Positions 1,107 through 27,311 of a stretch of DNA of 56,052 nt are shown piece by piece. Source of the DNA: Candidatus Altimarinota bacterium (GTDB taxonomy: Bacteria; Patescibacteriota; Gracilibacteria; BD1-5; UBA2023). A model generated the notes under the pieces. It saw only the letters and a program-made list of their open reading frames with translations. It had not been told where the DNA came from and did no database searches. Position 1 is the first letter of the stretch. Every line of letters begins with the position of its first letter. The position numbers were made by a program, and so were the translations under genes. Location: assembly GCA_024709505.1 (NCBI GenBank), contig JANJWP010000017.1, forward strand, positions 1 to 56,052. The letters are read 5' to 3'.

Positions 1107-3242
1107 CTATCTCGCGAAGTTTCCTCCGGAAGAACCTCAGAAATTTCCTCCCGAAGACCCTCCGAAACCTCCGCCTCAGGAAGATCCGCCGGACATTCCG
1201 CCCGAAGGCCTGCTACGGTTGCTCGCGGGATTGAAAATGGAAAACGCCCCGTTCGATCGGACTCCGGCAGTGGAAATGGAGAAAGCCGTGCTTACAACCT
1301 TGTCGCTAATTTCGATTCCTTCGAGAATTTCGGTATTTGTGCCGTTCGTAAGCCCAGTTTTCACTTCGACGGGACGCGGACGACCTTCCTTCCATACGCG
1401 GACGACCTTCTTTTCATTGGCACTGGAAATGGCTGCAGTAGGAACCATCACGACACCGGAACGCTCTTCGGTAACGATCGTTACGGTCGCCGTCATGCTA
1501 TTGTACAGGCGCAGTTCGTCCGATTGGAACCATATGACGGCCTTGTACGAAACGACGCCCTGGCTGGTCGCAGGAGTCGGATCGACTTCGCCCACCGTTC
1601 CGGTAAACGTTTCGTTCGGATACGAATCGAATTTGATCGAAGCCGATTGCCCCTCCCGAACCTTCACGACGTCGAGTTGATCGACTAAGACACTGATTTC
1701 GTAGAGTCACGGGACTTCTACCGTGACGCTCGTCGCCGAATCGGCGGAATTGGAATTCGTGGAAATTTCGCCGACCTTGCCATTGCTCGCGGTAATGATT
1801 CCGTCGAATCCCGCGACGATCTGATAGTCTTCTTTTTTCTTTCGCGCCTTCGAGAGGGAAATTTTTACCTGCTCGATTTGATTGAGAGCTGATTGAACCT
1901 CTTCCCTCGTTGGGCCGTCGAGCATTTTGGCATAGGAGAGGCGGTTGACCCTGAGCGCCTCTTCGAGCGAAGCGACGGAATCTTTCTTCTGTTGGATTCT
2001 CAATGCGTAGTCGCTTGCGAGTTTTGCTAAAGAAGCTTTGGCCGAAGCGAGGTTCGCTTCGAGCGAACGGACGTTCGATTCCTGTTCGAGGAGGTTTTGA
2101 TTTTTATTCGCGACGGTATTGTCGGCGCCCTGTCTTATGAGCGAAGGATCATCCATCGCCGCGATCTGTTTGCGCGTCGAGGCCGCGTCATTCAAATACG
2201 AAGCGAATTTCGCACGGTATCCCGAAGCGCTGCTCGAAAGCGATGAAATGGTCGATGACGTCATCGAAGACGCGGGAATGGTCGCGTCCAGAGCGAGGGA
2301 AATCGCATCGGCCGCGACCACGGCGGCATTCGCCATGTTTTCGCGTTCGAGCAAAAATTCCAAAACTCCTCCGGTATTGCTAAAATTGGCCGAGGGAAGT
2401 TTTTCGGCATATCTCTTGACGGCCGAGCGGAAAATCGCGAAGGCCTCCTGGGCTTTGACGCCCTTCTCGCTATCTTTAGCGGAAAACTCGGAGGGGCTCG
2501 TGAAATCATCGAAATTCAGTGCCGAATCTTCGAACGTCTGTACGAACGCCCGAGCCTCGGAAAGTTGGGTTCCAGCGCTTACCGAAGCCGAAGAAAGGAT
2601 GTACGCGAGATCAGTGGACGATTTAGCCACCGTGTTTTCTGAAGAAGCCCTTACGTAGTCAACGTCGCTCTTGAGGGTTTCGAGCCTTTCCCTCCCGATA
2701 GCGAGAGAACGTTCGGCTTGTTCGACCGAAGCGGTTTGGTCGCCGATTTTCGCGTCGCGCTCCATTTCGAGGTTCCGCATTTCATCGGGGGCGATGGCGA
2801 GAGCGCGTTCCGAGGCGGCGATGGACGCCTCCATTTTTACCCGGTCGTATTCGGTGACCCCAGCGAAAAGCTTATCGTAATTGAGTTGGGCGTTTTTAAG
2901 GGAAAGCTCCTGCGAACGGATATCGTTATCCACGTCGGTCGAATCGACTTCGGCCAGCACCTGTCCTTTTTTCACGCGGTCTCCGGGCTTCGCGTTCCAT
3001 TTGACGATTTTTCCGTTGGAATTGAATTGGAGCATTTGGGTGGATGCGGTAGTCGTCGTTCAGACTCCTTGGATCGTCGAGCGCACCGAACCCGTAAACG
3101 CTGCTACCGCGTCTTTTTCGGTCGGTCGGACGCTTGGCGCGGCGGGATTCGAAGAAGGCCAAAAATACCAGACTGAAAATCCAACGGAAAGCGCGAGCGA
3201 AAGGCTTGCGAGAGGATGTCTCTTAACGATGGAAAAATTCAT
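1107..3242 (-). CDS. membrane fusion protein, HlyD/MacA type
   Basis: Periplasmic adaptor of the efflux operon, 711 residues. A membrane anchor (residues 10-28) leads into a lipoyl-like half motif (KIVKWNAKPGDRVKKGQVLAEVD region, about 78-100). A long, probably coiled-coil Ala/Glu/Lys/Ser-rich region follows (about 105-480), then the second lipoyl half with FDGIITASNGKVGEIS and a beta-barrel region. UGA is read as Gly at 3060-3062 and elsewhere. The C-terminus is a Gly/Ser-rich tail of about 35 residues with repeated GGSSGG and GGNF, where UGA sits among ordinary glycine codons. The coiled coil is long for MacA. It lies 18 bases after the permease. Stop is TAG at 1107-1109. Confidence 0.9.
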
Positions 3243-3260
3243 GGGAGAAAAGTGAGAAAA

Positions 3261-4478
3261 CTATTCGGAACGGAGCGCGTCAATAGGACGGAGTTTGGCG
3301 GCCTTATACGCGGGAAGCAGTCAGAAAACGATTCCGATCGCGACCGAACACCCGAACGAAAGCGCGACCGAATACGGCGTTATCACCGCCGGAACTGAAA
3401 GCATCGAAGCAATATGTACGATGGCGTAACTCACGGCGATTCAAAAGGCTCCGCCGAGAAAAGTAAGAACCACCGCTTCCGTCAGGAACTGCACGATGAT
3501 GTCGGCGTTGAGCGCTCAGATGGAACGGCGGATTCCGATTTCGCGAGTACGTTCCGACACCGAAACGAGCATGATGTTCATAATGCCGATGCCTCAAACG
3601 ACGAGCGATATCGAAGCGATGCCGGCAAGGAACATTTTAAGGGTATCGGTCACGCTTGTCATCGTCGCGAGCATGTCGGCGGAACTCGATACCGAAAAAT
3701 TCGCGGCGTTCGGGTCGGAAATTTTGAATTTGGCGAGGTAATGGTTGGTAATGGACTCTTTCGCCTTGTCCATCGAGTCGGCCGATTCGGCCATTATCGC
3801 GAATTGGGAGACATATTTGTTTCCCAAAAATCGGTCCTGCAATGTGGTGATGGGCACGTAGATGGCGTCATCACTCGAAGCCATCGGACCGCTCCCCGAT
3901 CATTTCGATTCGGCGATTCCGATGACTCGGAGGTACACGTTTCCCACCTTGATATCCTTTCCGAGGGGGTTTTCGGTTCCAAAAAAGTTCGTCGCGGTCG
4001 TCGGTCAGAGCACGGCGACCTTGGAGCGTTCTTCGACGTCGGACTCCGAAATGAAGAGCCCATATTGGGCCTTGATGTTTTTTACTTTGGAATATTCCTC
4101 CTCCACCCCGTAGACGGTCGTGCTCGCGTTGATGGAACCCACGATGACTTGCCGGGAAGTTTGGGCAATGGGTGAAACAGCTCCAACGCCTTCGATAGCG
4201 CGGATTTCCGCAGTATCTTCAGTCGTAAAAATGTTCGAAGTCCGCACGTTGGTTTGACGCACGTCACCCTGCCGGCTTCCTCCGGGACGAAGGGTAAGGA
4301 GATTGGTTCCAAGCGATTCGATATTCGATTGGATGCTCCGTTGGGTTCCTTCGCCGAAAGCGAGAAGCACGATGACTGACGCGACGCCGATGATGATTCC
4401 AAGCGACGAAAGGGCCGTGCGCATCTTATTGGCGCGAATGCTTCGAAGCGCGTTCTGAAGGTGTTCGAAAAACGGCAC
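3261..4478 (-). CDS. ABC transporter permease, MacB/FtsX type
   Basis: Membrane subunit of the MacAB-like exporter, 405 residues. It has the MacB layout: N-terminal LRSIRANKMRTALSSLGIIIGVASV leading into TM1, a large periplasmic domain (about 45-275), then three C-terminal TM segments with [25 protein letters not shown] and the end motif LLPAYKAAKLRPIDALR. Six in-frame UGA fall where MacB has glycine, for example VLGPTTA, LVVGIGIM and RRSIGA. The start is GTG at 4478; no ATG lies close upstream in frame. It is first in the operon. I see no clear promoter in the 88 bases before it. Confidence 0.93.
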
Positions 4479-12324: not shown

Positions 12325-14139
12325 TTACATCGCTTCCAAAAACGCCTTGAGTTCCGAAAGAGCGACTTTGGATTCCTCTCCGGCGGCGCGAACCGATACC
12401 GAACGGGCTTCGGCGTCCTTTTCGCCGACGATGAGCATGACCGGAATCTTATCGGTTTCGCCTTGGCGGATCTTTTTTCCAAGCGATTCGTCGCGGTCGT
12501 CGAGCGTGAAACGGAGTTCGTTGTAGCGGAGCGGCTTCATGAGGACGACCTCGCGAAGCACCGATTCGACCTCGCGGGCATAGGGGATCGCCGCGTCGGT
12601 AACGGTCAGGATTCTGACCTGTTCGGGAGCGACCCAAAACGGGAAGCGTCCAGCGTTCATTTCGATGAGGAACGCCATGAACCGGTCAACCGACCCCATG
12701 AGCGCCATGTGGACGATGGCCGGAACTTGGTCGGAACCGTCGGTATCGACGTAGGTGATGCCGAATTTCGGAGCGATGGAAAAGTCTACTTGGATAGTGG
12801 AGAGGGTGTCTTCCTTGCCGTTGACGTTACGGACCTGGAAGTCGATCTTCGGACCGTAGAAGGCCGCTTCGTTCGGAGCGTCGAAATACTCGACCCCGAG
12901 CTGGTCCAAAACGGCGCGCATCGCGGTGACGGAGTCTTTCCATTCCTCCGTTTCCTCGCCGTATTTTTCGGCGTTGTTTTCAAAATCCGGAAGCGAGAAG
13001 CGGATCTTGTAGTCGCGGATTCAGAGGGCCCCGTAAGCCCGGATGAAGCGTTCGAGCGCTTCGCCAATAACCTCGAGAAGCTGGGAGCGCATAGAGTAGA
13101 CGTGGGCGTCGTTTTGGGTGAACCCCCGGACGCGGATGAGTCCGGAGAGCGTTCCGGATTCTTCGTAGCGGTAGACGGTTCCGTATTCCATGAGCTTGAA
13201 CGGCAGTTCGCGGTAGGAGCGCGGTCGGTTCAGATACACCTGGTGGTGCATGGGACAGTTCATGGGCTTCAGGTAGAACTTTTCGGGAGCCTTGCCGTCT
13301 TCGGCCCCTTCCCCTTTCAGGTTGACCATCTCGATGGGCGCGAACATGCCGTCGGCGTAGTGCGCCAAGTGGCCCGAACGGGCGAAGAGGTCGGACTTGG
13401 CGATATGCGGAGTGTAGACGTATTTATACCCGGCGCCTTCGGCTTCCTGGGTCATGTACTTCTCGAGCGTCTGGCGAAGTTTCGCCCCCTTGGGAAGGTA
13501 GATGGGCAACCCCGAACCAACCTCGTCCACGATGGCGAACAGTTCCATCGATGCACCGAGCAAGCGGTGGTCGCGCTTTTTCGCTTCCTCCATCATTTTG
13601 ACGTGGGCGTCGAGTTCTTCCTTGGTATCGAAGGCAAGCGCGTAGATGCGGGTAAGCATCGGGCGCTTCGAATCGCCCTTCCAATAGGCTCCGGCAAGTT
13701 TTTCGAGCTTGAAGGCGTTTTCGTTCAGATCGGCGGTTTTGTCCACGTGGGGACCGCGGCACATGTCAACGAAGGTTTCGGTGCCGTTTTGCGCGACGTT
13801 GCGGTAAAAACCGATTTCGGTTTCGCCCTTCGCCGCGAGGTCGTTCGCCATTTCGACCTTGTAGTCTTCGTTTTTGGATTCGAGATAGGCGACGGCCTCT
13901 TTGACGGGAAGCTTGTACGCTTCGAACTTCTGGTTCTGCTTGATGAGGTTTTTCATCTTCTTTTCGATGTCTTTGAGCGATTCGTCGTTGATCGAAACGC
14001 CGCCGAAATCGAAATCGTAATAAAAGCCGTGCTCAATATCCGGGCCGATGGCCATCTTGGCTTCGGGATAGAGCGATTTTACGGCTTGGGCCATAAGGTG
14101 CGCGAGCGAGTGGCGCTTGGTGGAGATGGGGTGGGACAT
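12325..14139 (-). CDS. thrS: threonyl-tRNA synthetase lacking the TGS domain
   Basis: Charges tRNA-Thr. 604 residues against about 640 in E. coli. It begins directly in the tRNA-SAD editing domain ([11 protein letters not shown] with HxxxH; CRGPHVD), so the N-terminal TGS domain is absent. The class II core follows ([24 protein letters not shown]) and then the anticodon-binding domain ([12 protein letters not shown]). UGA is Gly in ALGIRDYKI. The start ATG 14137-14139 is preceded by a leader with a terminator hairpin and a threonine-rich mini-ORF, so expression is probably controlled by attenuation. Confidence 0.96.
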
Positions 14140-14180
14140 GGGAAAGCTTTCGTAATGCGGATATCCGCGAAACTAAAATG

Positions 14181-14214
14181 AAAACCGCCCCGCCTTTCGG
14201 ACGGAGCGGTTTTT
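14181..14214 (-). terminator. thrS leader attenuator hairpin
   Basis: Lies between the thrS promoter and its start codon. In minus-strand RNA the arms AAAACCGCUCCGUCC and GGCGGGGCGGUUUU pair fully with two G-U pairs. The plus strand has A/C mismatches there, so the structure is built for the minus transcript. A U-rich tract (UUUUCAUUUU) follows. The 5' arm AAACCG can alternatively pair with CGGUUU at the end of the leader mini-ORF. Confidence 0.75.
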
Positions 14215-14236
14215 GAAAATGCTGGTGAAAACACTC

Positions 14237-14293
14237 TTAAACCGTCGCCCGAATGCGGGATTGGGTGGTGGGAGTGTCCGGTTGTGCGACCAT
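14237..14293 (-). CDS. putative threonine-rich leader peptide of thrS
   Basis: 18-codon ORF from ATG 14291-14293 to TAA 14237-14239, starting about 46 bases after the -10. It reads MVAQPDTPTTQSRIRATV, with four Thr codons of 18 (ACT CCC ACC ACC clustered, and ACG near the stop). Its last codons contain CGGTTT, complementary to the 5' arm of the attenuator. A ribosome stalled at the Thr cluster would leave that segment free, while one at the stop would cover it. There is no clear Shine-Dalgarno, the main weakness. The ORF happens to share frame with dapD upstream. Confidence 0.5.
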   Translation of the reverse strand: MVAQPDTPTTQSRIRATV

Positions 14294-14338
14294 GCGAGGA
14301 GTTCTCGGGTTGGTGAAGGTGTTTTCGAAGATACGGGA

Positions 14339-14366
14339 AGTATAGCAAGAATGCCTTCGGAGTCAA
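14339..14366 (-). promoter_or_regulatory. thrS promoter
   Basis: Minus-strand TTGACT (14361-14366), 16-base spacer, TATACT (14339-14344). One mismatch from consensus in each box, placed about 200 bases before thrS, implying a long leader. Confidence 0.75.
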
Positions 14367-14383
14367 CTGCCGAAAAGCCGCCG

Positions 14384-14416
14384 AAAAGAAAAATCCGCCC
14401 CATCGGGACGGATTTT
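14384..14416 (-). terminator. dapD terminator
   Basis: In minus RNA AAAAUCCGUCCC pairs with GGGCGGAUUUU (one G-U), followed by UUUUUCUUUU. It begins 18 bases after the UGA that ends dapD and lies before the thrS promoter. Confidence 0.85.
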
Positions 14417-14434
14417 AAACCGGAAAAACCGGCG

Positions 14435-15781
14435 TCAGTTCTTGTGAAGATCGGCGTTGAGCGCTACCACCCCGGTCGTGGGAACGGCTTCGACCGCGCC
14501 GTCCAGACTGTTGCGGCGGTAGGTCAAACCGGACTGGCCGGAGAGGAACGAACCCTTGATGGAGATGGTCACCCGGAAGGCGCCGTCCATGTTTACGGGT
14601 TCGAAGTTCAGGGCGAACATCTCCTGCCCCTCGAACTCCTTCCCGACTTCGGCAAGCGTCTCGGAGGAAAGCCCTTCGGCTTCCATCTTCGAGAGCACCT
14701 GCGCGACGTTCGCGAAGAGGTGGTCGAGGTCGGCATTGCTCGGAAAGCCTTCGCGCAGTTGCGAAGGAGTCCCGCGGAACACCCGCACCTTGGAACCGGC
14801 CGTAACGTACAGTCCGGCCTCGACCTTGCAGTCGTCGCCGAGCGAAATGCCGATTCCGCCGTTCGCGCCGATAAGGCAGCGCTTACCGACGCGGACCTTC
14901 TCCTTGCCGCCGCCGGAAAGCGTGCCCATGGTGGAGGCGCCGCCGCCGAGGTCGGAGTTTTCGTCCACCACGACTCCGGCCGAAATCCGGCCTTCGATCA
15001 TGCACTTGCCGAGCGTGCCGGCGTTGAAGTTGACGAAACCGGCATGCATCACCACCGTACCGGGAGCGAGATGCGCCCCCAGGCGGACGTTGTCGGCATC
15101 GCCGATACGCACGTCGGAGAGAACCACGAAGTCGGTCATGCGGGGGAACTTGTCCACCGAACGCACCGAAAGCGGAGCCCCGTTCACGGTCATATATTCC
15201 AAGTTGAGATCCTGGAAATGCGCCGCTTCGACCGGGCCTTCCTCTTCGGTCCACGCGCAATTGGTCAGAAGCCCGAAAACGCCGTCGAGGTTGATGGAGT
15301 TGGGCACGGCCTTGCGGTAGGAGAGAAGGTGGAGACGGAAATAAGCGTCCACGGCCGAAACCGGGGGCGCCTGCAAGTCGCGGACGACGATTACCACCGG
15401 ACGGACTTCGCCGTCGAGCGGCTTCATCGAACGTGCCGACATCGCCACGGCCTTGACCGCGTCGATGTTGGCATGCTTGCCGCCGTCGCCCTCGAAGGGG
15501 GCGAACGCCACGGAGAGGAGGTCCATCTGGTCGGCGTCGAGGTAAGCGACCGGGGATTCCCCGGAACCGAGGCCCGCGACTTCGGAAAAGACGGCCGCCG
15601 AACCGAAGTTTTCGTTGCGGTTGACGTGCGGAAAACGTACCGAAAGCACGTTTCCGCTCCGGCCGACGTGCGCGAGACCGATGGCGAAAGCCTCCGGGTC
15701 GGCGTAGCCTTCGCGGACCTTGATGGCCGCGACGGCGGAGCTGAAGGTGGTCTTATCGGCAATGCCAAGGATGGTATCCAT
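14435..15781 (-). CDS. dapD: tetrahydrodipicolinate N-succinyltransferase, ending at UGA
   Basis: Succinyl-CoA-dependent step of lysine/diaminopimelate synthesis, in the cytosol. 448 residues. The trimeric left-handed beta-helix core is clear ([65 protein letters not shown]). The C-terminus [13 protein letters not shown]...LNADLHKN matches the end of Pseudomonas-type DapD as I recall it, so the protein naturally stops at the UGA at 14435-14437, one of only two genes here ending in UGA. Reading on would add 66 residues through a terminator to TAA 14237. The gene has no internal UGA and looks richer in G+C than its neighbours, which hints at transfer from a standard-code donor. The N-terminal third ([20 protein letters not shown]) is longer than usual. 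No other lysine gene is nearby. Confidence 0.9.
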
Positions 15782-16988: not shown

Positions 16989-18080
16989 ATGGGAACGGAA
17001 GCCGCCGCCATCGAAAGACCCGAAATCAAGGAGCGCCCCATCCAGCCGGAAGCGTCATTTTCTTTAATCGACGCCATTTCCGGACAATTTCTCGGTTCCA
17101 AAAATTCCGATACTCGTTTCCGTGCGGAAGCGCTCCATTGGAAACAGGTGCGCGAATTCGGAGAACTCCATTCCCGATATCCATGAATGCGGTTTCCATC
17201 ACGGGCGGACGAAAGCCATGCCGCAAAAGGGGTTGAAACCGCGCCGGAAATGGTTGCGTCCTTCAAGCGCGAACTCTATGGAAAACTCGGAATAGCGGAA
17301 AATAAGGATTCCGCAAATGGGCTTGGGAAATTCAAACTCGGCCTTGCCGACGGACTCGTGGGAGACAATATCGAAACGGTCGAAGCGCTTCTGGAAATTG
17401 GAATCGATAAAGTAGCGGAGACTCTCCTTTCGATATTTTCGTCACTCGAAAAAGTAAAAGAATTCCTTTTGGCAGTGGGAAAGGAGCTTCTTAAAAATTT
17501 TCAAAATCTCGCGTCGTTCGAACCATACGAAACCGGGAAAGCGATATGAGCGCTCGGTTTTGGGGCAATCGGAAGCCTTGCCAAAGCGACTGGAAAAGAA
17601 GGGGTCCGTCATGCCATAAGAAATTCGACAACGGAACGCGTGAACAATGGCATTGCCGCCGTGGCGGATGCCCGCCGATGAACGGAACAGGCGGAAGGTT
17701 ACGTTAAGTGGTGATTTGACAAGCCCCATACCCCGAAAGATTACCTCGCGTTTTTTAAAAATCTGAATAAGAATTTCAACGTGAACGAACTCGCGTCCAA
17801 TCCGACGCAAACCATCGAATTCAGCCGTTCGATGGAAAACCTATCCGAATTCATTCAGCGGGAGAGGGTGCGCATGTCCAAAGAACAAATTGACGATTTC
17901 TACGACGAAATCATGGAGCTGAGGAAAAACATGACGCCGCTCGTGAGTCAATTGGAAAAACAAGCAAATTTGACGTGAGGAGGTCGGGCAGTACTCATCC
18001 CCCTTCGAATCGCGCTCACGAACGTTGAAACCGCCGCAAGTAGGCTCAAGCCGAATCTCTGGCAACCAATAGAACAATAG
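16989..18080 (+). CDS. hypothetical helical protein
   Basis: 363 residues read through five UGA codons (as Gly in YPGMRF, AIGALG, RRGTEQ, KWGFDK and LTGGGR) to TAG 18078-18080. The middle is amphipathic and partly hydrophobic (KFKLGLADGLVGDNIETVEALLEIG; ETLLSIFSSLEKVKEFLLAVGK; GALGFGAIGSLAKATG), the C-terminal third highly charged (FIQRERVRMSKEQIDDFYDEIMELRKN). No signal peptide. ATG 16989 has no obvious ribosome site. Not recognised. It may act with the membrane protein upstream, given tight spacing and shared strand. Confidence 0.7.
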
Positions 18081-18509: not shown

Positions 18510-18641
18510 GTGGACATGAAAGAAAACTATGTCGCTTGGTTAAACTGCTGGAAAGCCTTTCCAGGACTTAAGAGAGCTGTGTGTAAAAGAAAATCCAATG
18601 CTTCAAGCATTGGATTTTCAGGGTGGTTTATACGATGGTAG
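18510..18641 (+). CDS. possible 43-residue protein overlapping a terminator
   Basis: GTG at 18510 sits seven bases after a good Shine-Dalgarno (AAAGGAG, 18496-18502), giving a Trp- and Lys-rich 43-residue peptide. Its coding sequence runs through a perfect hairpin (18590-18618), and its TAG lies in the att core. The ribosome site argues for it, the overlap with a terminator argues against it. Confidence 0.25.
   Translation: MDMKENYVAWLNCWKAFPGLKRAVCKRKSNASSIGFSGWFIRW
18590..18618 (-). terminator. stranded terminator of the tRNA operon
   Basis: Perfect arms AAAATCCAATGCTT / AAGCATTGGATTTT, followed on the minus strand by TTTTCTTTTAC. No minus-strand gene now ends nearby. Removing the element would place it 16 bases beyond the tRNA-Glu 3' end, so it is probably that operon's original terminator. 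Confidence 0.7.
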
Positions 18642-18645
18642 CGCT
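18634..18645. repeat. left attachment core (attL)
   Basis: GATGGTAGCGCT, copy of the tRNA-Glu 3' end. It joins chromosomal sequence on its left to element sequence on its right. Confidence 0.8.
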
Positions 18646-18732
18646 GAGATTTTGGGAAATCGAGTCAGAATAATCGAAAAAATTATAGCTCGTCAAGGAA
18701 TTCAAATCTATGATTTTGAAAGGTGCTGGTAA
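18646..18732 (+). other. orphan 3' coding tail of the serine recombinase
   Basis: If the element is circularised at the core, the recombinase frame (GAT GGT AGC GCT) continues here without a break for 28 codons (GAG ATT TTG ... TGC TGG) to TAA 18730-18732. It would give a basic, Ile-rich end including RVRIIEKIIARQGIQIYDF. The methylase ATG follows 12 bases later. An open run of this length could arise by chance, but the spacing to the next gene supports it. Confidence 0.6.
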
Positions 18733-18744
18733 TGGCTATTATTC

Positions 18745-20151
18745 ATGCATCATAGTAATCTCGAAAATCGAATGCAAACAATACCCATTTCATCATTTCA
18801 TAAATACTGGGGGAAAAAGCCGTATTTTCTTTCTAAATACATAATATCAAAATACACAAAAGAATGAGATCTTATTCTTGATCCATTTTGCTGAAGCTGA
18901 TCGTTGGTCATTGATGCCGTTCTTAGCAATCGAAGACTTGTGTGACAAGATATAAACCCAATAAGCACAAGCATTAACAAATGATTGACCTGAAATATCC
19001 GGCACGAGGAACTGAGACGGGTTTGGGAAGAAACACTCAAGCCCATTTGTGTTAAACTTGAACTGAAATACTACAGCGATGTAGGTGGAAAATTAATCAA
19101 ATCTTTTTTGAGAACCAAAAAAGATGACACAATAAATGCAATTTTACTAAAAGACTGAGAAATAAAGAGAAACGCTGACGGGTTGGAAAATAAATGGATT
19201 CATGAACCATTTATTCCGCATTGGTGATTTGAAAAACCAATGATTTCGAATTCAAGACTTACTGTTAAGAAAAACACAAAGGTTAAGGATTATTTCACGG
19301 ACTTGTCATTACGATGCCATAGCGAACTCTTATTCGCTATAATAAATCTTAAACCAGAACATCAAGCCTTCTTTATGACGGCTTTTACTGCAAATATCGC
19401 AAATTGTTCAAAACTTCTTCCTCCAATAAAATCAAGATGAATTTTTGCTCCCTGAGCATGGATGACGTGATTTTACATAGCAAATGAATACATAGAAAAT
19501 AACGTATTTCATTTTTATTGAAATCGCGTCCAGAAACTCCTTAAGGCAAAACAGTTTTTTGAGGCCAATTCTACAGGCATGCTGTCCGAAGGTATGGAAG
19601 AAGTTATGGGTTCGGAGAGTAATTTCATATTCACCACAGGGGATGCAAAAAATATTCAAATAGATTCCAATACGGTGGACGTAATAATAACCGATCCGCC
19701 ATACTGATGAACGGTACCTTATCTGGAACAAAGCGCGATTTGGAATGCCTTCATAAATGTGGAGCCGAATTTACTTGAAGAGATCGTAATTTCCGACTCC
19801 AAGGAACGAAATAAGGGAAAAGATGGATTTCGCAAAGATTTGTTCAATGCATTTTTGGAAATGAACAGAGTTTTGAAAGATACTGGAAAATTAATTTTAA
19901 CCTACAATTCCGTAAGTCTAGATGACATGAATAAGCTGAGTGCAATATTACGAGACACTGGATTTCAGATACTGAATGTATCTAACGTCGTGCAGAAAAC
20001 TAAATCGCCAAGACAGCTTAATAGAATAAATGTCGTAGGCTGAGACCTGCTCATCATTTGAGTAAAGTCCGCCAATCCAACACTATTCGAGTTCAATGAA
20101 GATGTCTTATCAAGGCTTGAAGAAATAAATCTCCATAATTTCATGAATTAA
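18745..20151 (+). CDS. DNA methyltransferase (DPPY, amino-methylating class)
   Basis: Site-specific N6-adenine or N4-cytosine methylase, 468 residues. N-terminal SFHKYWGKKP leads to AdoMet motif I, DPFCGSG (residues 46-52, both glycines UGA at 18892-18894 and 18898-18900). The catalytic motif IV is TDPPYGG (316-322, both glycines UGA at 19705-19710). Order I then IV with a long insert, which is probably target-recognition sequence. UGA is a common Gly codon here, so the gene cannot be expressed as full protein under the standard code. The stop is four bases before the next gene's ATG, so they form a restriction-modification pair. A+T-rich relative to the chromosome. Confidence 0.88.
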
Positions 20152-20155
20152 CTAT

Positions 20156-21253
20156 ATGAGCAAAATTCAAATAGAAAAATTGGAAGAATTATATAAAAAT
20201 ACCGATTTCAACTGAATTCTGGAAGGCTTCGAAAAACCTGTCTATAAAAAGTTTTTTCTACTTAAATCGATTTGTAAATGACCATCATTTAAGTCTTTTA
20301 ATGTTTTTCTCTCAAGCAAAAAACTTCCAATCGAAAAAAAAGTCAAAGATTGATTCGGCGTATATTTTAAGAATGCCGATGTTGCGATTGCAATGATTGA
20401 AGAGTTCGTACGAAGCGAATATGATAGGCTATCCCAGAAAATCATTATCGATTCTATAATTGCCGAGCTCAGTAAATTGCAATGCTTTGATTGGGGATGA
20501 ATATATCAAAACGCTCTTGAATGAAAAATTGTCAAGAATGTACAGAAAACATACATTTATGACGAAATAAAAAAATCACTAACATGAAAGCTTTTTGAAT
20601 CGTATCTAAATTACTGATTCACAAGCTGGTATAGTTATTGGTCCTCCGTGATTGTCGAGCATTATTTCAAGATGCACAAACGGATCATGCCAACCGTTGG
20701 TCTTGTAAAGTACATTGACTTCTTGTTTGACGACATTCCTATGGACCTAAAGGTCACCTATCTTCCCCAAGAATATATCGATATGCGAAGGAACGAGTCC
20801 AAATTAGATCGAGAATTTAAGGTTTTGAAGAGTAGGATGGCTGGAATCAAGGGGATGGACTTCAGTGTAGAGAATTTAATGACAATAAACAATGCTATCA
20901 ATGCATCTAAAAATTTAGGCCTAGATGTATTCGGAGAGTTGAAGGATTTTAGAAAAAAAATATCTGACAATCTGGCAAATGATTTATCGAATGAAAAAGA
21001 AAAATTGCTATCCTGGCTATATGAAAATCAATGAACAAGAAGATATGACAACTCATATAGATTGTTCCTAATTTGCATTGATGACATTTCGATTATTGAT
21101 GCATGGAAAATGAAAATCAACAAAGGCCTCCAATCAAAGATCAATGAATTCTTAGATAAGTGACCTAATTTAATGGAAGTGAAATATCAATGGGAAGGAC
21201 GAAGCAAGACAACGAAAGCTAGTGCATTAATCGTCAGAAAATCAGAGCTGTAA
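20156..21253 (+). CDS. probable restriction endonuclease of the methylase pair
   Basis: 365 residues, read through several UGA codons. Central KYIDFLFDDIPMDLKVTYLP carries a PD-(D/E)xK-like site: Asp188 or Asp192, then D197-L-K199 on a beta strand. That hydrophobic-xDLKVT pattern is typical of type II nucleases. An aromatic block (TSWYSYWSSVIVEHYFKM) precedes it. The position four bases after the methylase is the strongest argument. No helicase motifs, so type II rather than I or III. Specificity unknown. A+T-rich, with UGA as a frequent glycine codon. Confidence 0.7.
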
Positions 21254-21289
21254 ATTAACTAATAATATACACATATTTTTAGTCAAAAG

Positions 21290-22132
21290 GTGTGCGTCTT
21301 TATAAATCCGAAACCCGAAAAGGAAGAAATCGTCAATCTAATTCAGCGATTCTTTCAAAGCGAAATTTCCCACCAGCATTTTGCAACCTGGAATGACGAA
21401 CGTATTCAAATCAGAAGCTATGATGATAAAATAGGCTTTAATCTGATGGAAGGGCATCACGGCGTTGAGGACGACATCCTTTTTTTCAAGCTTGCAGAGG
21501 CGTGAATAGTCCGAGTGCGCCTGTATTCCCTGAGTTACTGAAGGGATTTGCCGTCATGAAAAAAAATATGTACCTTGCTCGATAAATATGCGATTCGCTC
21601 AGGTTACGTCAGCACTTCTGAAACCGGAAATTCCGAAGTGGACATGCATGCCCTCATTTCGTCATGAGAAATGGGGAACCTTCTAGCGCTAACGGAGAAG
21701 CTGATAGACGAAAGCATGGAGGACGATGAATATTTCGAATGGGACGGAATGTTCTTCATGGAAGTCGATTTAAAATTTTCCGAATTCCTGGAAAGAGTCA
21801 CGGACTATTTATCCGAATGTGGCCTCGTGAATCCCGAAGAAGCAAAAGGCGTATTGATTGAAAGGTTGAATCAAAAAATTAAATACGCATGAGATGACTT
21901 GGAAATCAAATTCACTCTTAAGGAGTTTTTTGATACCTATCCGAGTATTTATTGAATGCTGAAGCATTTGGAGAGAACTGGGAAAATTGACATCGAATCC
22001 ATCGAAATCATCGAAGACAGGCAAGTAAAATTATGAGTATGGGAACCCGCAACCGTAGTGCTAAGCATGAAATCGAACGTCTCAATGCTAAGGCCGGAAT
22101 TCAGCTACACGGCAAATGTTTCTAAAAAATAA
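21290..22132 (+). CDS. hypothetical protein
   Basis: 280 residues from GTG 21290 through several UGA (Gly) to TAA 22130-22132. Acidic and soluble; no membrane segment. Segments of note are CVFINPKPEKEEIVNLIQRFF, SYDDKIGFNLMEGHHGVEDDILFFKLAEAG and VDLKFSEFLERVTDYLSECG. Not recognised. Placed behind the restriction-modification pair with a 36-base gap, so it may be an accessory or another defence gene; this is position only. The start is uncertain because no strong ribosome site is visible. Confidence 0.65.
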
Positions 22133-22176
22133 GGAAGGATGTTGAACTTAACGGACTTACGCTATCCATCAAATGA

Positions 22177-22455
22177 ATGGACTTCCAGCTTGAAGCTGGA
22201 GGAAGAACGGCATCCTATATCAAGCTGATTATTGATTGCCGATCGGATTGAAAAAACGAAGTGACATTTGAAGAAATGGTGGAAACGTACTCGAATTCCC
22301 CTTCGAATTATAAGTGAATAGGCGTGAATGATTTCGGAGCCGAAACAGCAAGAACCCTCCTGAAGTCAAAATGATACTTGATTTGAGGCGCACTTCGAAC
22401 AAATGAGAAAACCTTCTTTCGGGTAACCAAAGACCGCATAACAATGCCGTTTTAA
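22177..22455 (+). CDS. small hypothetical protein, possibly 5'-truncated
   Basis: 92 residues, MDFQLEAGGRTASYIKLIIDCRSDG onward, with UGA as Gly at four places. Upstream in the same frame lies ATG 22033 (MSMGTRNRSAKHEIERLNAKAG), broken by a TAA at 22123-22125, followed by further plausible coding sequence (DVELNGLTLSIKG). So the real gene may have begun at 22033 and carry a nonsense mutation, or two tiny genes adjoin. The 22033 start overlaps the end of the preceding gene. Not recognised. Confidence 0.5.
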
Positions 22456-22519
22456 TAATATTTGGGTAAGTTTGGGCCCCAGGGGCTAAATAGGAAAAGC
22501 GCTTGAAATCAGAAGAATT

Positions 22520-22548
22520 AACCGTGCGAATCAACCGCACGGTTTTTT
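22520..22548 (+). terminator. terminator of the methylase-nuclease block
   Basis: ACCGTGCG / CGCACGGT stem with T6 behind it on the plus strand. It closes the A+T-rich block; the sequence turns sharply G+C-rich immediately after. Confidence 0.8.
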
Positions 22549-22655
22549 CGTCCTGCGGGTCGCCACCGCGGGCACAGCCGCTTGGCGGGACGGCTTCCCG
22601 GTTCACCGGGATCCGCCCGCCTGCGGCACGCCGAGGCCGGCTCGGCAGGCTCTTT
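22549..22655. repeat. G+C-rich cluster of hairpins, candidate origin region
   Basis: Non-coding stretch just before the rep block with consecutive inverted repeats: CGTCC.../...GGGACG (22549-22593, imperfect), TCCCGG-TTCA-CCGGGA (about 22597-22612) and GCCGAG-GCCGG-CTCGGC (22630-22646). Such dense secondary structure near a rolling-circle Rep gene could be a single- or double-strand origin, but no nick site is identifiable by eye. Confidence 0.45.
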
Positions 22656-22667
22656 ACGATTAACCCC

Positions 22668-22934
22668 ATGCGAATCATCAGAAGGGACGAACAGCCCGAA
22701 ACCCTCAAAGCGAGAAAAAGGGCGAACCCGGATTTCTACACGCTCTGCATCGACTCGTCCGAATTCGGATGACGGAAATTCAGGCGGAAAGCCCGGAAAG
22801 TATGACGCGATTACCGGAAACTCTGATACCGGATCGAGAAGATATCGTTCTTCATGCGGACGCGCTGAGGAACGGAAAGGATTAGCGCCAGGTTCTATAT
22901 GTCCCGAAACGCGACCTATGCTCCGATTCAATAA
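22668..22934 (+). CDS. small highly basic protein upstream of rep
   Basis: 88 residues, about a third Arg or Lys (KARKRANPDF; GGRKFRRKARKVGRDYRKLGYRIEKISFFMRTRG), with UGA read as Gly at four positions. Likely binds nucleic acid. No recognised family. Its position directly before the replication initiator suggests a replication accessory or copy-control protein; this is inference. The stop TAA is at 22932-22934. Confidence 0.6.
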
Positions 22935-22994
22935 TATCGGAGCAGTAACTACCGAAACCACGAAACCAGCCTCCCGGGAGCGAACTCTATTTTA

Positions 22995-23010
22995 GAGCTC
23001 GCGCGAGCTC
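22995..23010. repeat. 16-bp perfect palindrome before rep
   Basis: GAGCTCGCGCGAGCTC, centred about 26 bases before the rep ATG. Candidate operator for rep autoregulation or part of the nick region. Confidence 0.5.
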
Positions 23011-23027
23011 ATAGTTTTTCCCAAACC

Positions 23028-24038
23028 ATGAGCGCAAACAACGCACTTACCGTCCGCATGGACGACATACTCCACTTCTGACTGGACGAACTCGAAGCTT
23101 TCGCGTCCTTCCGTCAGGAATACCTTTTCGAAGGCATGGACTGCGACAATTCCAACGTCCGCCAGTTCGAAGACTACGTGGCCGAGAAATCCATCGTCCA
23201 ATGATACCTCTACAAAATCACGTTCATCCGCGAAAACCATCCCCTCTTCGCCTACTACAAGGGCGATCCCGGGGCTTCGGTCAGAACGCGCGATTACGTG
23301 GTCGCTTATTCCAGCGCCTTCAGGATACTTTGAGAAACCGGAGTCCGGGAGTTCGTCGAGAAGCACTTCGACATCCACAAACTGAGGCGTTTCGACGTGT
23401 GCCTCGATCTCCCCTACCCCATTTCCCGAATAGACAAAGAATTTCCAGCGCCCAAACAGAAACACGCGGAATTCAGCGGGAGCGGCTGAGCGCTCGAAAC
23501 CCGGTACATCGGGGAAAAGCGGAACTCGCTGAACAAGCGCCAGCTCGTCCGCGTCTACGACAAGATCGCGGACACCGTGAAGAAGGGCAAACAGCTCCTC
23601 TATTCCGAATACCTTTCCCTCGAAGCGGTCACCCGCGTGGAATTGGAAATCCGTTCGGAGCTCGCGAAGAACGTGGAATTCCACGAGGCCTTCGACCAAC
23701 GGAAGCTCTTGGGGATATTCAAGAACTACCTCTCCAGACATACGGACATCTTCGACAGTCTGCCCGAACCGAAGGAAACCCTCTTCCGAAAGCGCGAAAC
23801 GGTGGACGGCGACACCATCCAAGACCGTTCTTACTGGACTCATAAGGCTAAGCTTTTGCGCGGAATAGCCAAGAACATGCTCAAGGTCGGCATCTGCCCG
23901 GTCGAAATGCTCATGAAGGACGGCATCCTCACGGAAAGGACGAAGGCCGCCATCTGATACAAGCATTTCGCCCTCTACCAGAAAGACCTGCAGATCCGCG
24001 CCAACTGGAGCAGGAAGATACTCCCTAAGTTCCGTTAG
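23028..24038 (+). CDS. replication initiator, Rep_trans (rolling-circle) type
   Basis: 336 residues. The conserved core resembles the Rep_trans/replication initiation factor family: RFDVCLDL (121-128), ETRYIGEK (157-164) followed by RVYDK (175-179), and RVELEIRSEL (203-212). Members nick one strand at an origin and stay covalently bound through a tyrosine, supporting rolling-circle replication or integrative-element transfer. UGA is Gly at HFGLDE, VQGYLY, ILGETG, GSGGAL and AIGYKH. I cannot assign the catalytic tyrosine with certainty; one is in the ETRYIGEK block and another in RVYDK. Codon use and G+C resemble the chromosome, unlike the methylase block. Confidence 0.8.
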
Positions 24039-24040
24039 GC

Positions 24041-24163
24041 ATGCTTACCGTAGCGGAATGCAGGGAATACCTGCCGGCAGGATTGCCGGATGAAGACGCG
24101 GAAAGACTGATTCAGTTGCTTTGCGATTTCTGGAAGGATGAAGTTAACCTCCTCTGTATTTAA
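24041..24163 (+). CDS. 40-residue protein after rep
   Basis: Starts three bases after the rep stop. Acidic: MLTVAECREYLPAG, then DEDAERLIQLLCDFWKDEVNLL. A small helical protein, not recognised, probably translationally coupled to rep. 112 A+T-rich bases without clear signals separate it from the ankyrin gene. Confidence 0.5.
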   Translation: MLTVAECREYLPAGLPDEDAERLIQLLCDFWKDEVNLLCI

Positions 24164-24275
24164 GAAATATGCGTATATACTAAGATTAGCATTCCTAAAT
24201 AATAGCAATGTTTATTGCATGATATTTACGCATGGAATAAATACTGGAAACCTTTAATGAGATAAACCAGAACAC

Positions 24276-25808
24276 ATGAGAGTTTTCATATATATAGCTT
24301 CCGCATATCTCGCATGATGGGCAGCTTGATTAATAAATTTAAAATCAATTCCGAAGTTAAAAGAATGGATAACTGAAGACTTCAGTGATACCAAAATTGG
24401 CTCATGAATTGTTTTCGTAATCATTATTGCGATTCTTGAAACAAGACTCTCAGCAAGAACTAGAAATAGTAAATTAACCCAGTTAGCCCTTTTCGAGGGC
24501 TTATGAGTATTTTCGATATCGATAAGTATTCCAAAACTTCTATGATGGGATATAGGCCTTATTTGAATCATTACGATGATTGCGTGCACTGTAGTCTTGG
24601 TAATATCCACATTCTTCATCTATATCATGACGCGAGTTATGCTCACATTCAGGAAAAGAGTGAAGCTGAGCAATGGCGAATTGACGTACGGAAAATATCA
24701 ATGGTTTATCTATATATCAATCATATTGGGCTTAGCGCTGATATCTGGATATGCGTGTAATTGGATGTTGAGTAAATTTCTAATCAATTGAGTAACAAGA
24801 AATGAGGTTCTAATCATGTCAGCAATCTTATCAATTACATTTACCGTCACGCTTATTAAGTTAGATAATTTTGACCTAGAAAGATTAGTTAAAAAATTTA
24901 TAGCCATGAACAGGCTCGACGACAGTACATCCAATATCAAGAAGGCAAAATTCAAAGACGTTAAAAGAAAGATAATTAAATCAACCCGCACCACTGCAAA
25001 CGAAATAAAAAAGACGGGGGGCGATGTTAAAATTTCTGGAAAGCTAAATCTAAAAATTAGCGAAAAATGAGAAGTTGAAATAGAAAATCAAATCAAAGAT
25101 GCCGCGATAGTGTCGGTATATTGAAAGGTCGAGGCAATAAATTCGGATGACTTATTAAAATTTATTTCAGATACGAAAATTAAGTGCGATCCGAGCCTAT
25201 CCTTAGAAGCAGCAAAGGAATATCTTGAAGAGCAGCTATCAAGTCAGTTGAAGGAATATATTGATGGATACGTAGGACTCGTAAAAGCCGGTGAAAAAAC
25301 GGCATGTCTGTGAGCTTGAATCGAGCCTGTCGAGCAAACCTTATACCACGCATCCGTAGAAGGAGATACTGAGTTAGTACGCAAATTGATTAAAGAAAAT
25401 CCAGAAATCGATATCAATAAGCAAAATGAAATAGATGGATGGAATCCGTTGTTAATAGCGGTCGCCAATAAACATAAAGATACAGCGAAATATCTTTTAT
25501 CCAAAGGCGCAAGCGCTGATGCAAGAAATTATGCACACTGAGCGGCTCCGATGCATTTCGCCTGCAAATATGGATTCAAGGATATCTGCAAACAACTCAT
25601 TGAATACTGAGCGAATATAAATATCAGGGATGATTATGGAAAAACGCCATTGATGTATGCTTCCGAATTTGGACATTTTGAATTGGTTCAGTACTTAATT
25701 GTTAAATGAGCAAACAAGAAGATTAAAGACTTACGCGGAATGAGCGCATTTGAATATGCGAAAAAGGAGAAATATTGAGAAATATTGAGAATACTCGTAA
25801 AAAAATAA
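24276..25808 (+). CDS. membrane-anchored ankyrin-repeat protein
   Basis: 510 residues. The N-terminal 200 residues hold about six hydrophobic segments (for example VFIYIASAYLAGWAAGLI, IGSGIVFVIIIAILE, YQWFIYISIILGLALISGYA). A charged linker (205-340) follows with KRKIIKSTRTTANEIKKTGGD. The C-terminal 160 residues are five ankyrin repeats (TLYHASVEGDTELVRKLI; NPLLIAVANKHKDTAKYLL; APMHFACKYGFKDICKQLI; TPLMYASEFGHFELVQYLI; SAFEYAKKEKYGEILRIL). UGA falls on conserved ankyrin glycines (HGAAPMH, EYGAN, VKGAN, KYGEI). Ankyrin domains bind partner proteins, so a membrane receptor, exclusion or host-interaction role is possible. A+T-rich; it ends one base before the recombinase ATG. Confidence 0.85.
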
Positions 25809-25809
25809 C

Positions 25810-27300
25810 ATGTCCTCCATCATCTACTGCCGCAAGTCCACCGACAAGGACGACCGGCAACTGAATTCGCTGGAGCACCAGCTCCAGAACTGTCGGAACA
25901 CCGCCAAGCGCCTCGGCCTAACGGTCGTTAAAGAGTTCGTAGAGAGCGCCAGCGCCAAAACCGAGGGCACCCGCCCCGTGTTCAACGAAATGATCGCCAT
26001 GGTTCAGAAAGGCGGCATTGATTGCCTGCTCTTCGACGAACCCAAGCGCCTCTCGCGCAACTACATGGACGGAATGCTCCTTCTGAGCCTCTTCGACAAG
26101 GGGAAAATCCGCAAGCTCGTCTGAACCACCCGCACCTATTCGTTCGACGAACCCACCGACAAGCTCATGCTGAGCTTCGAGCTCGCGCTCTCCAAGCTCG
26201 ACAACGAAAACCGCGCGAAAGACACCAAGAACAAGATGGTGACGTGCGCCAAGAAAGGCAGGTGCCTCACCAAAGCCCCGTTCGGATACCGGAACGTCAC
26301 CGTCAAGAAGGGTGAGAAGACCGTCATTATCGACCAAGAACGGGCGGAAGCGGTCAGAACCATGTTCCGCATGCGCAAAGACCGGTACAACTTCAAGGAC
26401 ATCCAAACCTTCTGCCGCGAGAAATACCCGCACCTTTCCAACTTCAACCTCGCCAACATCCAGAAGATCGTCACCAACCGTTTCTATCTAGGCATCTGCA
26501 AGTTCTCCGGGCAAGAATACCCGGGCATGCACGAGCCTATCGTATCCAAAGAGCTCTTCGAAGCTGCAGGCAACGCCTGAAAGGGCAACTACGCACGAAA
26601 GGAAGAGACGGCCAAGATATCGCAACCGCTCAAATGATTCTTGGTCGACATGTCCGGCCACCGCATGCCCGCCTATTCGAAACTCGGGCGGATCTACTAC
26701 AAGAGCCAGAACTGGAGTCCCGAGAAAGTGAACGTCTCCGAGAATTACGTTTTCGACAAGGCGGGCGAATACTTCAAAGAATTCGACATCGACTGGGCGA
26801 AGTTCGAAGCGCTCAACGGGGCGATCATCCGGGACATCATCAAGAACATGGATTCAGGCAACGCGGAACGGACGGAGGAAATCAGCCGCAAAATCGGCCA
26901 AATAGAAAAGCGCAAATCCGTGCTCCTCGATTTAAGACTGGACGGAAGCATCGAAGAAAGCGAATACCGCGACAAACTCAAAGGGATGAACGAGGAGCTC
27001 GTGGAACTCCGCAAAGCATCCGAAAAGACGTTTTCCGGCAAGGATTTCGAGAAGACCTTCGAAGAATTAATCGAACTGTCGAAAAGCCTTTACCAAAGCT
27101 ATCTCCGGGGTGACAATCTCCGAAGGGCCGAACTTCTCAAAAACGCGATAATCGAACTCCGCGTAAACGACAAAAAAGAGCTCGTATTCAAGGAAAACGA
27201 ACTCTTCTCTGCCCTCAAAGGGGTTGTTTTATCTGATGGTAGCGCTACGGAGAATCGAACTCCGGTTTGCGGGATGAAAACCCGACGTCCTGACCACTAG
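25810..27300 (+). CDS. large serine recombinase (element integrase)
   Basis: 496 residues in the integrated state. The catalytic domain starts IIYCRKSTD (Ser10) with DEPKRLSRNYMDGM, then the recombinase domain (APFGYRNV; VTNRFYLGICKFSGQEYPG) and a coiled-coil end (EISRKIGQIEKRKSVLLDLRLDG). The usual zinc ribbon is degenerate: PLKGFLVDMSGHRM and IYYKSQN lack the expected cysteines. UGA is Gly at 26122-26124, at NAGKGN and at LKGFLV. The last 18 codons and TAG 27298-27300 are borrowed from antisense tRNA-Glu; in the circular form the frame would end instead at 18732. It begins one base after the ankyrin gene. Confidence 0.9.
27235..27246. repeat. right attachment core (attR) in tRNA-Glu
   Basis: GATGGTAGCGCT, in frame with the recombinase (codons GAT GGT AGC GCT) and, on the other strand, the acceptor stem and CCA end of tRNA-Glu. 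Confidence 0.8.
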
Positions 27301-27311
27301 ACGATAGCGCC
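27237..27311 (-). tRNA. tRNA-Glu (UUC)
   Basis: 75 nt with encoded CCA. Acceptor GGCGCTA pairs with TAGCGCT (G1-U72 wobble), D arm GTCTAGTGGTCAGGAC, anticodon loop TTTTCAT (UUC), T arm CGGAG-TTCGATT-CTCCG. The top pair of the anticodon stem is mismatched. Integration restored the gene intact. Confidence 0.93.

Follow-up and report, generated by a model that had tools for sequence, protein, structure and literature searches.

A putative 8.6-kb integrative element with a large serine recombinase and a Rep_trans-type protein at tRNA-Glu in a code-25 bacterium

The window analysed here, a stretch of 56,052 nucleotides from Candidatus Altimarinota bacterium (contig JANJWP010000017.1), very probably holds an 8.6-kb integrative element at tRNA-Glu. 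We put the probability at about 0.82 for a reading in which a large serine recombinase (LSR) and a Rep_trans-type protein form the backbone, a methyltransferase with a candidate restriction partner and an ankyrin protein are the cargo, and the cycle and the array at the tRNA gene are as proposed below. The first-pass annotation had described an integrative element that uses tRNA-Glu and carries a Rep and a serine recombinase, all of which stands; what it had missed is the array, the recombinase frame that runs into the tRNA and the relatives that consist of arms only. The sequence itself shows the core with its arms, the genes, the LSR reading frame and the array (Table 1), as well as the recurrence of the pattern within the phylum, and the element is one member of a widespread class of LSR elements at tRNA ends.

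Table 1. Features of the element and its flanks, in window coordinates.
Feature	Coordinates	Strand	Basis or remark
Decayed right arm of an older LSR element (G019/L063 type)	18536..18633	+	own terminator hairpin
Left core copy GATGGTAGCGCT, 12 bp	18634..18645	.	
Left attachment arm (GAGATTTTGGGAAATCGAGTC)	18646..18667	+	blastn vs L053
DNA N4/N6 methyltransferase	18745..20151	+	PF01555 7e-18, PDLC03319 1e-81; 16 in-frame UGA
365-aa ORF, candidate restriction endonuclease	20156..21253	+	abuts methyltransferase
280-aa ORF	21290..22132	+	open frame, no family match
92-aa ORF	22177..22455	+	weak phrog_37387
Rep_trans/pT181-type rolling-circle initiator or MobT-type relaxase, 336 aa	23028..24038	+	
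Membrane protein with C-terminal ankyrin repeats, cargo	24276..25808	+	Ank_2 4e-29
LSR, 496 aa (code 25)	25810..27300	+	PF00239 1e-23, PF07508 8e-12, phrog_95 6e-59
Right attachment arm, last 31 LSR codons before the core	27142..27234	+	
Intrinsic-terminator-like hairpin, tRNA-Glu direction	27172..27204	-	stem 27178-27185 / 27197-27204, then U6
Right core copy GATGGTAGCGCT, 12 bp	27235..27246	.	spans tRNA-Glu 3' end
tRNA-Glu(UUC), target gene	27237..27311	-	ARAGORN; 3' end = attachment core

Attachment sites and the array at tRNA-Glu

The earlier statement that the 12-bp core of the tRNA-Glu 3' end is duplicated 8.6 kb away proved correct: both copies of GATGGTAGCGCT were located, 8601 bp apart. 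In the whole 1.17-Mb assembly the 12-mer occurs just twice, both times in the window, and it was present in none of the dinucleotide shuffles of the window, so the duplication is real and far beyond chance. As in tDNA islands, an intact tRNA-Glu stands at one end and a displaced fragment of the tRNA 3' end at the other. Positions 18636-18667 are 97% identical (32 bp) to the tRNA-Glu junction in a same-genus relative, G001 (blastn against locus L053); there tRNA-Glu is likewise occupied, and no empty site was seen. The first-pass annotation had also called for a search for free circles, and none was found among viral contigs, plasmids and short contigs: the viral contigs and plasmids held no relatives of the Rep, and the short contigs had no end overlap.

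To the left of 18634 the sequence resembles the tail of the L063 LSR, which sits at tRNA-Glu in genome G019, in two collinear blastn matches (88% over 43 bp, E 1.5e-8; 83% over 35 bp, E 0.004). The right-arm HMM matches 18536-18633 weakly (E 0.12), and a perfect hairpin lies inside this older arm. Because the left flank matches the L063 tail, position 18634 reads as an element-element junction, at which the present element abuts an older, decayed LSR element. The boundaries first proposed are the outer ends of the two core copies, but the left flank is an older decayed arm and not chromosome, so that rejoining the flanks would give the tRNA plus the older arm and not bare chromosome. With an older element of the same kind beside the present one, the tRNA-Glu site has, on this evidence, the form of a tandem array, and tandem arrays are also seen in relatives (L053, L056, L057, L060, L065, L144). 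A 363-aa gene to the left of the older arm (16989-18080), with patchy distant relatives in G020, G024 and G014, could belong to the older element as cargo.

The recombinase and its reading frame

The 496-aa protein has a Resolvase followed by a Recombinase domain, with PF00239 and PF07508 both above cut-off and the catalytic serine in its N-terminal motif. Residues Y6, R8 and S10 are invariant in 19 homologues, and R80 and R83 of the catalytic region are also invariant in the family. The frame contains no stop before the core; it crosses the core into the antisense strand of the tRNA and ends at a TAG (27298-27300) inside tRNA-Glu. The C-terminus predicted from the sequence is SDGSATENRTPVCGMKTRRPDH in the integrated state and SDGSAEILGNRVRIIEKIIARQGIQIYDFERCW in the circle, where the frame would enter the left arm.

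This arrangement recurs. Among 17 other tRNA-adjacent LSRs, a set that leaves out L084 with its broken frame, 16 have frames that stop within the tRNA or past it, and the remaining one (L061) has a one-base gap in its tail; over order and phylum together the frame enters the tRNA in 63 of 70 tRNA-adjacent LSRs. Forward frames were compared over the stretch from the conserved LSR end to the tRNA, in intervals of at least 30 nt. The frame of the LSR was open in 28 of the 31 intervals under the standard code (+1 in 9, +2 in 7) and in 10 of 14 under code 25 (+1 in none, +2 in 2). Openness into the tRNA is specific to the LSR frame. At one locus, L205 (G309:C8), the LSR frame ends in a tmRNA gene instead of a tRNA.

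The right arm and the arms without recombinase

The last ~31 codons before the core form a nearly gap-free alignment in 27 copies and are in frame even where the LSR is absent. Their profile stands far above noise in the window's order and is hardly present outside it, where weak matches (E 1e-4 to 1e-3) were counted as noise. In the window the arm folds at -26.6 kcal/mol over 76 nt, the best terminator-like hairpin reaching -20.1, and the hairpin with its U-run lies 33-65 nt downstream of tRNA-Glu. Of 19 loci in the order, 17 have a terminator in the direction of the tRNA within 100 nt, a feature present in 33 of 190 shuffles; loci from outside the order show little enrichment (16/24, compared with 97/240 shuffles). 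The element would thus make up for the original terminator, which its insertion moves away from the tRNA. That the right arm is merely a generic terminator was considered and rejected, since it occurs once, plus the decayed copy, in the window's genome.

At least ten right arms that adjoin a tRNA lack a full LSR on their upstream side (L053, L074, L075, L083, L088, L155, L158, L160, L162, L168), and for two of them a matching far end was found. In G001 (L053, contig C34, 5334-6250) an arm-bounded element of 0.9 kb at tRNA-Glu encodes a HepT/MntA toxin-antitoxin pair and no recombinase; its left arm is 97% identical to that of the window, its right arm 95% identical in protein, and the tRNA-Glu there shows three consecutive att-like junctions. 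On contig 51 of G051 (L088, oriented 2295-4376), 2.08 kb with ORFs of 290 and 128 aa and no recombinase lies between 12-bp cores at tRNA-Glu(CTC). A further locus (L166, G014:C1:189000-206000, at 12588-14694) has three degenerate right arms spaced 0.8-1.2 kb apart before tRNA-Glu, with cargo that differs between the arms and includes a zinc-metallopeptidase gene, in a cassette-like array devoid of a recombinase. The natural reading of such sequences is that arm-only elements are mobilised in trans; most of the arm-only loci may instead reflect decay after loss of the LSR. In one tandem array (L057, G037:C3, 4194-4402) the first 30 LSR codons are followed directly by the right arm, as in an internal-deletion derivative.

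The Rep protein

The 336-aa protein of the window has no Pfam match on its own; PF02486 (Rep_trans) is touched by 6 of 13 homologues, with a best E of 0.0025. A search of PDB sequences with the Rep profile gave no match, so the fold was searched instead: an AlphaFold2 model built from 13 sequences (pLDDT 82) matches 4cij/4cwc, pT181-type initiators from Geobacillus and Staphylococcus, at E 1.6e-9 to 7e-8. The replication protein of Rep_trans type named by the first-pass annotation is thus supported by predicted fold and weakly by sequence, in a match that does not separate initiator from relaxase. In most relatives the Rep lies 1-5 kb upstream of the LSR (twice each in G034 and G037, and in G046, G052, G056, G051 and G057), so that, judged from gene order, Rep and LSR form a conserved backbone. 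GC-rich inverted repeats upstream of the Rep (22521-22660) could hold its origin. Elsewhere in the window's own genome, contig C27 (G000:C27; L183, L269) carries a second Rep-like gene and a distant LSR; this pair was considered as a second copy of the element and rejected, no tRNA being near the C27 LSR.

Cargo and UGA use

Both the ankyrin membrane protein and the large serine recombinase of the earlier description were recognised, by Ank_2 and by the Resolvase and Recombinase domains, respectively. The restriction-modification system fared less evenly: the methyltransferase is clear from PF01555 and PDLC03319, whereas the restriction half is a candidate suggested by the 365-aa ORF, which has no family match. 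Homologues of this ORF occur in three genomes, one with a methylase-like stretch nearby; it was not found in plasmids.

The cargo genes have a GC content of 0.34-0.42, and UGA encodes 41-55% of their glycines, compared with 28% in the Rep, 11% in the LSR and 0-6% in host genes (six chromosomal genes and recJ). The cargo looks recently acquired, and a UGA-rich relative, not the window's host, is suggested as its source. The reading of UGA as glycine in the window's genome is supported by the methyltransferase motif DPFCGSGS, in which UGA encodes each of the two glycines, and by a UCA-anticodon tRNA that adjoins tRNA-Gly(GCC) on G000:C27, as expected for UGA decoding. The share of UGA among cargo glycines upholds the earlier proposal that heavy UGA use limits the element to UGA-Gly hosts: it can be expressed just where UGA is glycine.

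Spread across the phylum

Of 380 genomes sampled from the phylum, 231 contain LSRs that match the family profile. The tree holds 103 distinct LSRs, drawn from the order set and from three phylum samples (best profile matches, best PF07508 matches and other LSRs of the same genomes), and 96 of these have enough downstream sequence. A convergent tRNA or tmRNA 3' end lies within 400 bp of the conserved LSR end in 70 of the 96, the samples being best-scoring rather than random matches and all within the phylum; the same test with recJ as control gave 0 of 20. The PF07508 sample has a lower tRNA share, about 16 of 27, and of the 26 LSRs that have no tRNA, some are internal members of tandem arrays (L056, L060, L065). 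The genes hit cover the isotypes Glu, Gln, Lys, Arg, Cys, Asn, Phe, Leu, Trp, Ser, Val, Thr, Met, Ala, Ile and Pro as well as tmRNA. On the LSR tree the isotype changes 60 times, against a shuffled mean of 72, with Phe forming one clade. A named genome collection yielded one weak relative, with a tRNA-Ile near its LSR.

Duplicated cores of 12-13 bp are also present in L056, L065, L068 and L088. Seven of 36 relatives have a duplicated core of at least 10 bp, a length that none of the reversed-core controls reached; most relatives have no long duplicated core, so the far ends of those elements are unmapped. The use of tRNA ends by LSRs is common within this phylum, not exceptional. The first-pass remark that tRNA ends are seldom used by serine integrases is in line with published work (PMC3218068), whereas within this phylum 70 of 96 were counted at such ends here. 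In the part of the literature covered, no report of LSRs at tRNA genes in this phylum was found, nor a description of the features combined here or of their phylum-wide spread.

A proposed cycle and its alternatives

In the cycle that we propose, the excised circle would be copied by rolling circle. LSR dimers would bind attP, whose right arm would be the 3' end of the LSR gene, and a target comprising the tRNA-Glu 3' end and adjoining sequence. Exchange within TGGTAGCGCT would insert the element and leave the tRNA intact, bringing a new terminator downstream of it and swapping the LSR C-terminus between the circular and integrated forms. We infer the binding of the LSR, the excision and replication of the element, termination, and whatever the C-terminal switch may do. 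A point against this cycle is that canonical serine integrases are not known to recombine attP with attR, which leaves the tandem arrays unaccounted for.

Among Rep_trans proteins are both replication initiators and MobT relaxases (PMC5704250); the element may therefore be an integrative mobilizable element (IME). That it is chiefly an IME, in which a MobT-type relaxase would nick an oriT and the conjugation machinery of another element would move the circle, seems rather unlikely to us. The fold match is compatible with initiator and relaxase alike. The Rep_trans family includes the MobT relaxases of Tn916/ICEBs1 and those of many streptococcal IMEs, which can start rolling-circle replication as well (PMC5704250). 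Against this reading, the ORFs of the element revealed neither a coupling protein nor any other transfer gene; the two roles are not mutually exclusive.

Two further explanations seem improbable to us. The tRNA-Glu array might be a graveyard in which the 12-bp repeat is the relic of an immobile island, as the clearly decayed arm next to the element and the broken LSRs of several relatives (the first copy in L056, L084, L057) would suggest; against this, all element genes are open under code 25, the five catalytic-region residues are invariant in the LSR family, the core copies are identical and the cargo still has a foreign composition and UGA use. Alternatively, LSRs might adjoin tRNAs simply because tRNA loci tolerate insertion, the frame into the tRNA being a passive lack of stops. 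The 3' ends of tRNAs are indeed insertion hot spots for tyrosine-integrase elements generally (PMC4383910), and code-25 frames, with two stops only, stay open longer. Such passivity fits poorly with an LSR gene that is directed at the 3' end of the tRNA and meets it at an exact junction, with end-to-tRNA intervals whose other frames are mostly closed, standard code included, and with ~31 terminal codons kept in frame even in copies that have no LSR. An integrative element with a Rep and LSR backbone is the reading that we prefer.

A more ambitious generalisation, that tRNA and tmRNA 3' ends are the standard LSR landing sites phylum-wide, together with an attachment site lodged at the end of the LSR gene, an antisense-tRNA C-terminus switch between integrated and excised states, and trans-mobilised two-arm elements that accumulate behind tRNA genes as cassette-like arrays of defence and toxin-antitoxin genes, is tentative, and we rate it at somewhat less than even odds. 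Serine integrases are widely used tools, valued for their short sites, and reviews set them apart from the tRNA-targeting tyrosine integrases. If the generalisation is true, the phylum would hold many natural integrase/target pairs with defined landing sites, covering nearly every tRNA isotype. It would also explain one way in which very small genomes, those of changed-code hosts included, exchange genes, and would offer a test case for integration-dependent control of an integrase.

Comparison with known systems

Integration into tRNA genes by serine recombinases is described as rare, the named cases being phiRSM1 and one mycobacterial AICE group (Ghinet et al., PMC3218068), and the 29 streptococcal ICEs that have a serine integrase all interrupt protein genes (PMC4701971). 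The window element resembles the filamentous phage phiRSM1 (tRNA-Ser) and the mycobacterial AICEs (tRNA-Leu) in having a serine recombinase at a tRNA gene (PMC3218068). AICEs likewise combine an integrase with a replication initiator, often of rolling-circle type, but they carry an FtsK/TraB transfer gene; none was found among the ORFs of the window element, which is therefore not classed as an AICE.

An att site inside the integrase gene, with exchange of the C-terminus, is known from the streptococcal rumA ICEs and phage Mx8 (PMC4701971). As in these systems, serine and tyrosine, respectively, the att site of the window element lies in the 3' part of the integrase gene and exchange of the 3' end would alter the integrase C-terminus. 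Unlike the rumA ICEs, whose protein-gene target is disrupted, the window element and its relatives keep the tRNA or tmRNA 3' end intact; moreover, the stop codon of the window LSR comes from the antisense of the tRNA and no conjugation module was recognised. No report of an LSR frame that enters a tRNA was found in the portion of the literature covered. With the IMEs of Rep_trans/MobT type (PMC5704250) the element shares an integrase, a Rep_trans protein, a cargo of restriction-modification or toxin-antitoxin genes and the 3' end of a gene as its site, whereas IMEs at tRNA or gene 3' ends mostly have tyrosine integrases and the window element has a serine recombinase and no coupling protein that could be found.

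The best NCBIfam match of the window LSR is CcrA (5e-23), at 82 bits against a cut-off of 700, which leaves it outside the SCC recombinases. SCC elements have traits in common with the window element, namely a serine recombinase that targets a conserved gene at its 3' end, tandem composites and recombinase-less elements; their target is rlmH and their recombinases are CcrA/B or CcrC, whereas the window target is tRNA-Glu. Integron cassette arrays, built on the tyrosine recombinase IntI and attC, differ from the window element with its serine recombinase, and are like it in the array habit alone.
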